A model generated the notes under the pieces. The model was not told the origin of the DNA. It made no database searches and saw nothing but the letters and a program-made list of their open reading frames with translations. A DNA stretch of 64,000 bases, taken from positions 62,001 to 126,000 of the forward strand of contig NZ_LDQA01000025.1 in NCBI RefSeq assembly GCF_001475935.1, written 5' to 3'. This document shows positions 4,276 to 18,448 of the stretch, one piece after another (position 1 is the first letter of the stretch; each line of letters begins with the position of its first letter). This DNA is from Aureimonas ureilytica. Its GTDB lineage: Bacteria > Pseudomonadota > Alphaproteobacteria > Rhizobiales > Rhizobiaceae. A program made the position numbers and the translations under genes.

Positions 4276-4278
4276 GAA

Positions 4279-4376
4279 GCATCCAGGGGGAGTTCCAGCA
4301 GCGGAACTGAGAGGCCGGAGCACGATCCGGCGACCCCACGAACCTGATCCAGTTCGCACTGGCGTAGGGATGGAGC
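4279..4376 (+). promoter_or_regulatory. TPP riboswitch (THI element)
   Basis: The two most conserved parts of the thiamin pyrophosphate aptamer are present: CTGAGA at 4307-4312, which binds the pyrimidine ring, and the downstream block from GAACCTGATC at 4340 through GGCGTAGGGAT at 4361-4371, which binds the pyrophosphate. The arm AGTTCC (4291-4296) can pair with GGAACT (4303-4308). It sits 166 bases upstream of thiO and should lower expression of thiOSGE when thiamin pyrophosphate is plentiful. Exact ends are approximate. Confidence 0.95.
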
Positions 4377-4404
4377 GTTTGCGCCTCCGACAGGGATGCA
4401 CCGC

Positions 4405-15877: not shown

Positions 15878-16368
15878 CAATCCTCGCTCGGACGATCGAC
15901 GGTATCGAAATAGGGTTTGATGTCGAGAAGGGGCGTCCCGTCCAGAACATCGATCGCGTCGATCACCAGCTGCCCCGACGCCGGATCGACGTCCAGAAGA
16001 CGCACGAGATGTAGGCCGATCGGGTTGGGGCGGACGGGGGACCGCAGAGCGAATGTGCCAGATGCGGTCTCGGCAGAGCGAGGCTTCTGCACGGCCAGAT
16101 CACGCCGCGATTGATGCAGCCATGTCAGGAGATGGATGTGGCGTCCCGCTTCCAGGTTTTGCAGCGCGGCGCGGAACGGTGCGTCGATTTCGACCCTCGC
16201 CTTCTGGTTGGTTTCGCGGGCGACCCGCATGTTCTTGGGGCAGTCGGTTCGATCGGTCCAAGGGGAGCGGATGCGGCCGATAAAGGCCAGCCGCGCATCA
16301 TCCGCCGTCGAGGCGTCGAAGGGCAGGGTCGTTTCGCCCGGCCGAATGGAGGTTTTCTCAAGAGTCAT
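15877..16368 (-). CDS. trmO: TsaA/TrmO-like tRNA-methyltransferase
   Basis: 163 residues. The TsaA-like (YaeB/TrmO) fold shows FIGRIRSPWTDRTDCPKN at about 29-46, then ATP/SAM-pocket type segments HIHLLTWLHQSRRD and TFALRSPVRPNPIGLHLVRLL. TrmO makes N6-methyl-t6A at position 37 of certain tRNAs using SAM. The upstream extension of the frame to 16626 runs into the ArsR gene region and lacks similarity, so the ATG at 16368 is chosen. It is divergent from the ArsR-methyltransferase gene and is coupled to DUF2293. Confidence 0.82.
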   Translation of the reverse strand: MTLEKTSIRPGETTLPFDASTADDARLAFIGRIRSPWTDRTDCPKNMRVARETNQKARVEIDAPFRAALQNLEAGRHIHLLTWLHQSRRDLAVQKPRSAETASGTFALRSPVRPNPIGLHLVRLLDVDPASGQLVIDAIDVLDGTPLLDIKPYFDTVDRPSED

Positions 16369-16436
16369 AGGCGAAAGAGTATCGGGCTCGTGAAGCCCGT
16401 GCAAACGCGATGGAACCCACTTGCATCTTTCGCCTG

Positions 16437-16464
16437 CAACACATAAACATATCTTTATGTGTTG
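16437..16464. promoter_or_regulatory. Perfect palindrome, candidate ArsR-family operator
   Basis: CAACACATAAA at 16437-16447 and TTTATGTGTTG at 16454-16464 are exact reverse complements, 11 bases each, separated by CATATC. The site ends 20 bases before the ATG of the ArsR-methyltransferase gene and six bases before its AAGGAGG ribosome site, where a bound repressor would block transcription. It is strongly AT-rich in a GC-rich neighbourhood. Binding by the adjacent regulator is inferred. Confidence 0.7.
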
Positions 16465-16483
16465 GCGCGAAGGAGGCGCGTTC

Positions 16484-17485
16484 ATGGCGGCGTCTTTCGA
16501 TGCGACGGTGGAAATTCTGAAGGCTCTCGGAGAACCGACGCGCCTGCGCCTCGTCATGCTCTTGTCGAGCCACGATCTGACCGTTTCCGATCTCACTTCC
16601 ATTCTCGGCCAATCGCAGCCGCGCATTTCGCGTCATTTGAAGCTCCTGGTCGAGTCGGGCGTCGTGCATCGCTATCAGGAGGGGGCCTGGGCCTATTTCC
16701 GGCGTAGCGACGATGCGCTGATCGCGACCCTGGTGGACGCGCTTCTGTCCGGCGTCGTGGACGAAGACGGGCGCTTGGCGGGCGACCGCGAGAAGCTCGA
16801 ACATGTTCGCCTTGAGCGAGCGGAGCGCGCGGCCCATTATTTCAGCCGCAACGCCGAACAATGGGACCGGATTCGCTCGCTTCACGTGCCGGATGTCGAA
16901 GTCGAAAGCGCGCTTCTGGATGTGCTTGGCGACGAGAACATCGAGTCCGTCCTCGACATAGGCACGGGCACGGGCCGGCTTCTGGAGCTCCTGTCGCCGC
17001 GCTGCGAGCGCTCGCTGGGGATCGACGCGTCTCGCGAAATGCTGTCGATCGCCCGCGCCAAGCTCGACGCGGCGGGTCTCAGCCGCGCCAGCGTGCGGCA
17101 GGGCGATGCCTATCGTCTCCCGGTGCCGCGCGGCAGTTTCGAACTCGCGACGCTCCATCAGGTCCTTCATTATCTCGACGATCCTGCCGCTGCCATTCGC
17201 GAGGCGGCAGCGGCGCTGGCACCGGGCGGGCGTCTTGCCATTGTCGATTTCGCGCCGCACGGGCTGGAAACACTGCGCACGGAACATGCGCATCTGCGGC
17301 TCGGCTTCAGCATTGAGACACTCAGCGCCTATGCCCAAGCCGCCGGCCTTCGCGTCGAGACCATTCGCGCGCTTCCGCCGAAAGGCGAGAGGACTGACGC
17401 GCTCACCGTTCTCGTTCTCCTGGCCCGACGGCCGCACGCCGCCATCCCGCTCGATCCGGCCGCGCGCCCGGTCGAGGCAGCCTGA
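16484..17485 (+). CDS. ArsR-family regulator fused to a SAM-dependent methyltransferase domain
   Basis: 333 residues from the ATG at 16484, preceded by AAGGAGG. Residues about 8-80 are an ArsR winged helix (ILKALGEPTRLRLVMLL, then SQPRISRHLKLLVESGVV). The helix that carries metal-binding cysteines in ArsR/SmtB is here without cysteines, so metal sensing is unlikely. From about 155 comes a class I methyltransferase domain with motif I VLDIGTGTGRLLELL and the later HQVLHYLDDP. In alphaproteobacteria such fusions sit beside metF, as here (10-base gap). By analogy with SAM/SAH-responsive ArsR proteins it may sense SAM or S-adenosylhomocysteine and control methionine genes. Enzymatic activity is unproven. 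Confidence 0.88.
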   Translation: MAASFDATVEILKALGEPTRLRLVMLLSSHDLTVSDLTSILGQSQPRISRHLKLLVESGVVHRYQEGAWAYFRRSDDALIATLVDALLSGVVDEDGRLAGDREKLEHVRLERAERAAHYFSRNAEQWDRIRSLHVPDVEVESALLDVLGDENIESVLDIGTGTGRLLELLSPRCERSLGIDASREMLSIARAKLDAAGLSRASVRQGDAYRLPVPRGSFELATLHQVLHYLDDPAAAIREAAAALAPGGRLAIVDFAPHGLETLRTEHAHLRLGFSIETLSAYAQAAGLRVETIRALPPKGERTDALTVLVLLARRPHAAIPLDPAARPVEAA

Positions 17486-17495
17486 AGGAATGTCC

Positions 17496-18413
17496 ATGAT
17501 CCAGCGTCGTTCGCAGCGCTCGCCCTTCCGCGTGTCGTTCGAGTTCTTTCCGCCCAAGACACCGAAGATGGAAGAAGGGCTCTGGGACTCGATCCAGCGC
17601 TTGGCTCCGCTCTCGCCCGATTTCGTGTCCGTGACCTACGGTGCCGGGGGTTCGACGCGCGAGCGCACGCATCACACCGTCAAGCGCATCCTGAGCGAAA
17701 CGCCGCTGAAGCCGGCGGCACATTTGACCTGCGTCGATGCGAGCCGCGACGAAGTGGATGCCGTCGTGCGTCAATATCGCGAAACCGGCGTGCGCCATTT
17801 CGTGGCCCTTCGCGGGGACGGTCAGGCGGGTGCGGGTGGTGCCTACGAGGCGCATCCGAACGGCTATCGCAATGCGGTCGATCTGACTGCCGGTATCAAG
17901 GCGATCGATCCCGAGATCGAGATTTCCGTTTCGGCCTATCCCGAGAAGCATCCCGAAAGCCCGGACTTCGCAACCGACATCGACCTCCTGAAGCGCAAGG
18001 TCGATAATGGTGCGACGCGCGCCATCACGCAGTTCTTCTTCGATAATGATGTGTTCGAACGCTATGTCGAGCGCGTTCGGCGGGCCGGCATTTATGTGCC
18101 GATCGTTCCCGGCATCGTTCCGATCCACGACTTCACCAAGATTTCGCGCTTCTCGGCCGCAACGGGCGCCTCCATTCCGCTCTGGCTGGCCGAGCGTTTC
18201 GAAGGCCTGGAGAACGATCCGCAGACGCATAGCCATGTGGCGGCGGCGGTCTGCGCCGAGCAGGTGCTCGATCTCGTCGAACGCGGGATCGGCGATTTCC
18301 ATTTCTATACGATGAACCGGGCCGATCTCGTCTATTCGATCTGCCATATTCTCGGCTTGCGTCCGTCGGCCGGCGGCGATGACAGGACGGATCGTATCGA
18401 GCAAGCTGCGTAA
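17496..18413 (+). CDS. metF: 5,10-methylenetetrahydrofolate reductase
   Basis: 305 residues. Family landmarks are FRVSFEFFPPKT near the start, SVTYGAGGSTRERT, ISVSAYPEKHPES, and KVDNGATRAITQFFFDND. The FAD enzyme reduces methylene-THF to methyl-THF, the methyl donor for methionine synthesis. ATG codons occur at 17490 and 17496; the AAGGA at 17485-17489 is spaced correctly only for 17496. It forms an operon with the ArsR-methyltransferase gene and is followed by a strong terminator. Regulation through the palindrome at 16437 is likely. Confidence 0.94.
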   Translation: MIQRRSQRSPFRVSFEFFPPKTPKMEEGLWDSIQRLAPLSPDFVSVTYGAGGSTRERTHHTVKRILSETPLKPAAHLTCVDASRDEVDAVVRQYRETGVRHFVALRGDGQAGAGGAYEAHPNGYRNAVDLTAGIKAIDPEIEISVSAYPEKHPESPDFATDIDLLKRKVDNGATRAITQFFFDNDVFERYVERVRRAGIYVPIVPGIVPIHDFTKISRFSAATGASIPLWLAERFEGLENDPQTHSHVAAAVCAEQVLDLVERGIGDFHFYTMNRADLVYSICHILGLRPSAGGDDRTDRIEQAA

Positions 18414-18416
18414 CGA

Positions 18417-18448
18417 GAAAGGGCCGGATGAACCGGCCCTTTCTGTTT
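18417..18448 (+). terminator. Rho-independent terminator after metF
   Basis: GAAAGGGCCGG (18417-18427) and CCGGCCCTTTC (18433-18443) form a perfect 11-base-pair stem with loop ATGAA, followed by TGTTT. It starts three bases after the metF stop codon. It is the clearest stem-loop terminator in this half of the window. Confidence 0.9.

Follow-up and report, generated by a model that had tools for sequence, protein, structure and literature searches.

The sahR-metF operon of Aureimonas ureilytica: a conserved 20-bp operator and an ArsR regulator fused to a methyltransferase domain

Introduction

Which signal does an ArsR-type regulator follow when it carries an entire methyltransferase domain and stands directly in front of metF, and which genes does it control? 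The question is raised by a locus of Aureimonas ureilytica lying within 64,000 nt of contig NZ_LDQA01000025.1 (positions 62,001 to 126,000), the whole of which is called the window here and supplies all positions given below. The locus is the sahR-metF operon and its regulator SahR is a known system, already described, well conserved and ordinary. It deserves attention for the combination of a clean operator and a three-operon regulon with a regulator that has a whole methyltransferase fold as its ligand domain. Additionally, one family seemingly exists under two names with conflicting functions, an SAH-sensing repressor vs an arsenite methyltransferase. The point worth further work is whether the methyltransferase domain is just a sensor or has an activity too.

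Organization of the sahR-metF locus

The features of the locus are collected in Table 1. The sahR protein matches the HTH_5 (ArsR) family with an E-value of 1.2e-13 and the Methyltransf_11 family at residues 157-253 (E-value = 6.7e-23), which confirms the ArsR-methyltransferase fusion proposed in a sequence-only reading of the window. The same reading had placed metF downstream in the same operon with a terminator of its own, and this is borne out by the MTHFR match, a gap of only 4 bp between the two genes and the 12-bp hairpin behind metF. The terminator scan gave seven such sites in 3.1 kb vs 2.5 in shuffles, and the hairpin behind metF has the longest stem among them. Other matches to the sahR protein in its own genome are partial and none is a paralogue of the full fusion. 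Among the best 80 of 570 matches, the nearest named relative is from Aureimonas ureilytica, with 87% identity.

The sole cysteine of the protein, C174, is located in the methyltransferase half, in agreement with the earlier remark that the ArsR part lacks metal-binding cysteines. Metal sensing of the ArsR/SmtB type was rejected because the ArsR domain contains no cysteine at all.

Table 1. Features of the sahR-metF locus (window positions) and the basis of each assignment
Feature	Position	Strand	Basis
-35-like hexamer TTGCAT	16421..16426	+	CTTGC conserved at the same operator distance in orthologues; putative promoter
SahR operator, 11+6+11 palindrome	16437..16464		Sequence and conservation; conserved 20-bp core 16441-16460
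Ribosome-binding site AGGAGG	16471..16476	+	Sequence
sahR, ArsR-family regulator with class I methyltransferase domain, 333 aa	16484..17485	+	Profile matches, alignment, model
ArsR winged helix-turn-helix, residues 18-62	16535..16669	+	HTH_5 match; putative recognition helix (residues 45-58) from model
Methyltransferase fold, residues 153-318	16940..17437	+	Profile, alignment, model; SAM-binding motif DIGTGTG (158-164) and D181
metF, 5,10-methylenetetrahydrofolate reductase, 307 aa	17490..18413	+	MTHFR (E-value = 3.1e-89); TIGR00676 above cut-off
Intrinsic-terminator-like hairpin, 12-bp stem, T-rich tail	18416..18444	+	Terminator scan

Divergent from sahR lies a trmO-like tRNA methyltransferase gene (15880-16368, minus strand; TrmO_N, E-value = 6.3e-30), whose family name points to use of SAM, and the intergenic region with the operator is common to both genes. 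A homologue is also found upstream, in opposite orientation, in 49 of 80 relatives. Between trmO and the operator there is also a 10-base perfect inverted repeat (16369-16378 and 16426-16435; AGGCGAAAGA and TCTTTCGCCT). Elsewhere in the window, a TPP riboswitch was detected at 4276-4387 (plus strand, 65.9 bits).

The operator and its conservation

The palindrome reads CAACACATAAA-CATATC-TTTATGTGTTG, with 11-base arms that are fully complementary around CATATC; read without a gap, the same stretch is a 14+14 repeat with 93% complementarity. A scan tolerating up to three arm mismatches gave a single occurrence in the window, and 100 shuffles gave none. The gap to AGGAGG is six bases (16465-16470), exactly as the sequence-only reading had described for a perfect 11+11 palindrome before the ribosome site, and the gap to the ATG is 19 bases. 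Its core is AYATAAASATATSTTTATRT.

Conservation was studied in two sets of loci. The first consisted of 80 named relatives, which are the top 80 among 570 and therefore lean to close ones. The core was found upstream of all of them, with 20/20 matching bases in 74, 19/20 in five and 18/20 in one, and the best matches fall into 18 distinct versions. In these orthologues the conservation of the central ATAT is similar to that of the arms, so the view of the six central bases as a spacer was not upheld, while the outer four bases on each side are weakly conserved. The perfect 28-bp palindrome was rejected as the functional unit because its outer bases vary among the 80 relatives. Downstream of sahR, metF is present in 78 of the 80; in one of the two exceptions, no more than 613 bases of the contig remain.

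The second set comprised 49 distant loci with 38-56% protein identity and estimated start codons, 29 of them from a class-wide sample (own locus excluded) and 20 picked for low identity. Here the core is matched at 17 or more of 20 positions in 42 loci and at 14-16 in the other seven. The metF gene lies just downstream on the same strand in 45 of the 49; among the four without metF nearby, two (L209 and L212) have ahcY divergent from sahR.

Upstream of the core, CTTGC is enriched at positions -21 to -17 (C 48, T 57, T 56, G 52 and C 50 of 84 non-redundant upstream regions), with little other conservation outside the core in those regions. In the window this pentamer occupies 16420-16424. A 17-bp spacer from the -35-like hexamer would place the -10 element at about 16444-16449, within the operator; no promoter at this position appeared in the sigma-70 scan. 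With the -10 element inside the operator, the geometry would suit a repressor.

The SahR protein family and its structural model

Of 240 genomes sampled in the class, 119 carry the fusion (E-value ≤ 1e-40), all but one of them as a single copy. We aligned 66 members, adding to the window's protein 28 sequences of the first conservation set (80 named relatives) and 37 of the second (49 distant loci), and every one of them matches both the ArsR and the methyltransferase families. Invariant in the alignment are Q45, P46, S49 and H51 of the putative recognition helix, as well as D158, G160, G162 and D181 of the SAM site. H259, H270 and G274 vary little or not at all, and conservation is strong around the SAM site.

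The structure model has a mean pLDDT of 92.3 and a pTM of 0.86, and a helix formed by residues 97-132 joins both domains. Its C-terminal domain aligns with methyltransferases, several of them solved with SAM or SAH, specifically with 1vl5 (Z 24.3, rmsd 2.1, 179 residues), 3bus (Z 22.5, rmsd 2.3, 187 residues) and 5gm1, which contains SAH (Z 21.8, rmsd 2.6, 182 residues). Concerning the full length, the best Foldseek rows are two-domain O-methyltransferases with a TM-score of about 0.43 and an rmsd of about 20, values indicating that one domain fits at a time. No solved ArsR-methyltransferase fusion was recognised among the structure matches listed, and no paper on a SahR structure was found, judging by titles.

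The regulon in the own genome and in the family

The half-site pattern AYATAA-N8-TTATRT has three matches in the own genome (5.01 Mb, 183 contigs) and none for the reversed control. The three sites precede sahR-metF, metH and ahcY. The metH gene, which encodes 1254 residues, has its site 45 bp before the ATG; for ahcY, a gene split over two contigs, the distance is 111 bp. Both sites have a divergent centre and match the core at 18/20 (metH) and 16/20 (ahcY) positions. By eye, the CTTGC before metH is not at the same distance as before sahR. No operator site was found at metK of the own genome, where the best match is 12/20. Since the same motif stands before metH and ahcY, making three operons in this genome, the sahR-metF unit is not self-contained, contrary to how it had first been described.

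Of 41 family genomes, 40 contain the pattern, with 147 matches vs 14 for the reversed control (summed), which is not zero in every genome. We fetched the sites of 12 genomes out of 18 with complete site lists besides the own one; G001, G010, G012, G020, G025 and G026 were left out. In the 12 genomes, 37 of 40 sites adjoin sahR-metF, metH, MetH-like half proteins, ahcY or metK, a proportion that may flatter the pattern because G026, with the highest control count (5), is among those left out. By eye, an operator precedes metK in two relatives (L134 and L151). Thus the motif, which had been suggested as worth looking for before metF, metH, ahcY and metK of related genomes, was found before all four. 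The idea of a retained SAM/SAH-binding fold in an ArsR regulator set to control methionine genes through this palindrome is also supported.

The remaining three of the 40 sites (L131, L143 and L145) have no SAM-cycle gene beside them and, by reading, adjoin a LysR-like regulator, a transposase-like gene and one unclear neighbor; these operator-like sites are probably due to chance. In four relatives, two operators were located 6 to 20 kb apart (L138, L139, L141, L142, L160, L161, L163 and L164), preceding proteins that resemble the N-terminus and the middle of MetH with about 26-33% identity. By their sequences, these proteins may represent a split methionine synthase.

Comparison with described regulators of methionine genes

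Alphaproteobacterial SahR (Novichkov 2014; Leyn 2014) shares with the present regulator the ArsR domain, a palindromic 20-bp operator before its own gene and sites before metF (as sahR-metF), metH and ahcY. The gene size is also similar, 1023 nt for sahR of E. aridi vs 1002 nt here. The excerpted text of PMC4239095 gives a 20-bp palindrome for SahR and the core targets sahR, ahcY, metH, metH2, metF and metK. On the match in operator length, targets and gene length, the locus was assigned to SahR. The absence of a metK site in the own genome is the sole difference found in the comparison of operator length, targets and size. As the core regulon is defined in that excerpt by genes regulated in more than 70% of the genomes with SahR (PMC4239095), metK is not required of every SahR genome.

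Expression reports also exist for these genes. When Sinorhizobium meliloti was shifted to acid, metF, metK, bmt and ahcY shared one expression cluster, with metH in another (PMC2651895), and a study on Brucella microti describes ahcY, metH, metF and sahR as induced together (PMC8710502). The excerpt of PMC8877191 does not mention metF. MetJ and the SAM/SAH riboswitches also regulate genes for methionine or the SAM cycle, though of other lineages, and they are an unrelated protein and RNAs, respectively.

Fused relatives outside the class

Across the phylum, 299 genomes were sampled and 80 of them match the protein at an E-value ≤ 1e-20. Of these, 24 lie outside the class, and we fetched 18 of the 24 matches. 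Twelve of the 18 loci have metK downstream on the same strand, five of them with ahcY further on, while the other six precede metH genes; the latter proteins are homologous over most of their length, with about 32-35% identity. ATC-N10-GAT occurs at most 150 bases before the chosen start in 17 of the 18 loci, and the eighteenth (L260) has one in its upstream stretch. The control CTA-N10-TAG is found in none of the 18, and ATC-N10-GAT itself appears in 1 to 12 of 200 shuffles per locus. H259, L273-G274-F275, D181, G162 and G164 are majority residues in all three groups (class, metK-linked and metH-linked). The position of D158 is occupied by E in the twelve metK-linked proteins, and that of G160 by A in the six metH-linked ones.

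The excerpt of PMC4239095 presents ATC-N10-GAT as a consensus common to gamma-proteobacterial SahR and SamR, and states that samR lies with metH1 and metH2 in Xanthomonas. From their neighbors and upstream sites, we infer that the metK-linked and metH-linked relatives correspond to gamma SahR and SamR, respectively. Likeness to SamR of Xanthomonadales (Leyn 2014) would then extend to the fusion itself, since the putative SamR-like relatives are fused and carry ATC-N10-GAT upstream in 6/6 metH-linked loci. The operator of the window, in contrast, has no symmetric ATC-N10-GAT by inspection, its neighbor is metF, and all six SamR-like relatives differ from its protein by the A at the G160 position. 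The sequence-only reading had hinted that the methyltransferase-fused form is special here. Its occurrence in about half of the sampled class genomes, together with fused relatives next to metK or metH outside the class, does not agree with that view and indicates that the fusion is the normal build of the family.

In the loci L251-L256 and L263-L268, also outside the class, versions of ATATCAAAA-TTTTGATAT are found upstream in place of ATATAAAG-CTTTATAT. The recognition helix of the same ten out of twelve reads QSG vs QPR in the class, and the two may represent a changed operator and its counterpart in the protein.

Proposed mechanism and the nature of the signal

We consider it likely that SahR represses sahR-metF, metH and ahcY through the 20-bp operator and that SAH, bound in the methyltransferase domain, releases the repressor. 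SahR would bind the operator over the expected -10 element and shut down the three operons. When SAH builds up, it would occupy the methyltransferase domain in the position that the reaction product takes in a methyltransferase, and the long helix (residues 97-132) would relay the change to the ArsR domain, so that the repressor leaves the DNA. AhcY would then remove SAH, and MetF together with MetH would remethylate homocysteine. Novichkov's 2014 work reportedly showed SAH sensing for a Desulfovibrio SahR.

Both SAM and SAH are bound by this fold in its structural relatives, and SAM sensing has been proposed for the related SamR in the excerpt of PMC4239095. SAM could be what the regulator responds to, serving as its co-repressor in the manner of MetJ, or a single pocket could read the SAM/SAH ratio. 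However, the operators here include ahcY, whose product removes SAH, and not metK. The SamR argument in that excerpt relies on regulons without SAM-cycle genes except metK (PMC4239095), a pattern opposite to the present one, and we regard SAM as an unlikely effector relative to SAH.

A different kind of question is posed by ArsRM of Brevundimonas sp. M20, the first gene of an arsRM-metF-HMT-metH operon (PMC10190100, in excerpt). ArsRM is likewise an ArsR-methyltransferase fusion heading a metF-metH operon, but it is described as an arsenite methyltransferase. The same excerpt reports that it methylates As(III) with 0.87 U/mg by a kit assay, makes E. coli more resistant to arsenite and, in EMSA, binds to its own promoter (PMC10190100). 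We compared the two proteins by the named residues alone. All eight non-cysteine residues named for ArsRM, which derive from a docked homology model, match the window's protein at a constant offset of +2, while the next best offset gives 2/8. ArsRM and SahR thus appear to belong to the same protein family. We found no paper naming both 'ArsRM' and 'SahR'.

These reports, the matching residues and the strong conservation around the SAM site would fit a two-function enzyme that controls the operon with its ArsR domain and transfers methyl groups to a substrate, arsenite for ArsRM, with its methyltransferase domain. Against it, C134, named as part of the As(III) site of ArsRM, is missing from the window's protein and falls on P136. 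None of the 66 aligned members has a cysteine there, and 21 of the 66 have no cysteine at all. All three own-genome operators precede SAM-cycle operons, and in our judgement a methyltransferase kit assay alone is not proof of product identity. Such a double role therefore seems improbable to us, and SahR as an SAH-released repressor is the reading we prefer. A bolder proposal, to which we would give similarly little credit, holds that SahR and 'ArsRM' are one family described twice and that the methyltransferase domain is a slow enzyme. Its turnover or self-methylation would be part of the signal, so that the repressor would read methylation flux (SAM in, SAH retained) beyond the SAH level. 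Settling the conflict between the two names would matter for how roughly half of the class genomes sampled (119/240) are annotated.

Finally, a palindrome so near to a ribosome site could fold in RNA as a leader hairpin or riboswitch, or could be due to chance, but this is extremely improbable: the spacing between it and the estimated start codon ranges from about -5 to 97 bp across the 49 distant loci, the motif also precedes unlinked genes in the own genome and overlaps the expected -10 element, Rfam has no match at the operator region at gathering scores, and, as for chance, the shuffles gave no such palindrome.

A SAM-II (SAM_alpha) riboswitch does occur elsewhere in the own genome (L269, C136:64552-64629, minus strand, 69.7 bits), adjoining a gene that is metZ-like by reading of its open frame. 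With this riboswitch at the metZ-like gene, methionine biosynthesis and recycling seem to be separately controlled.
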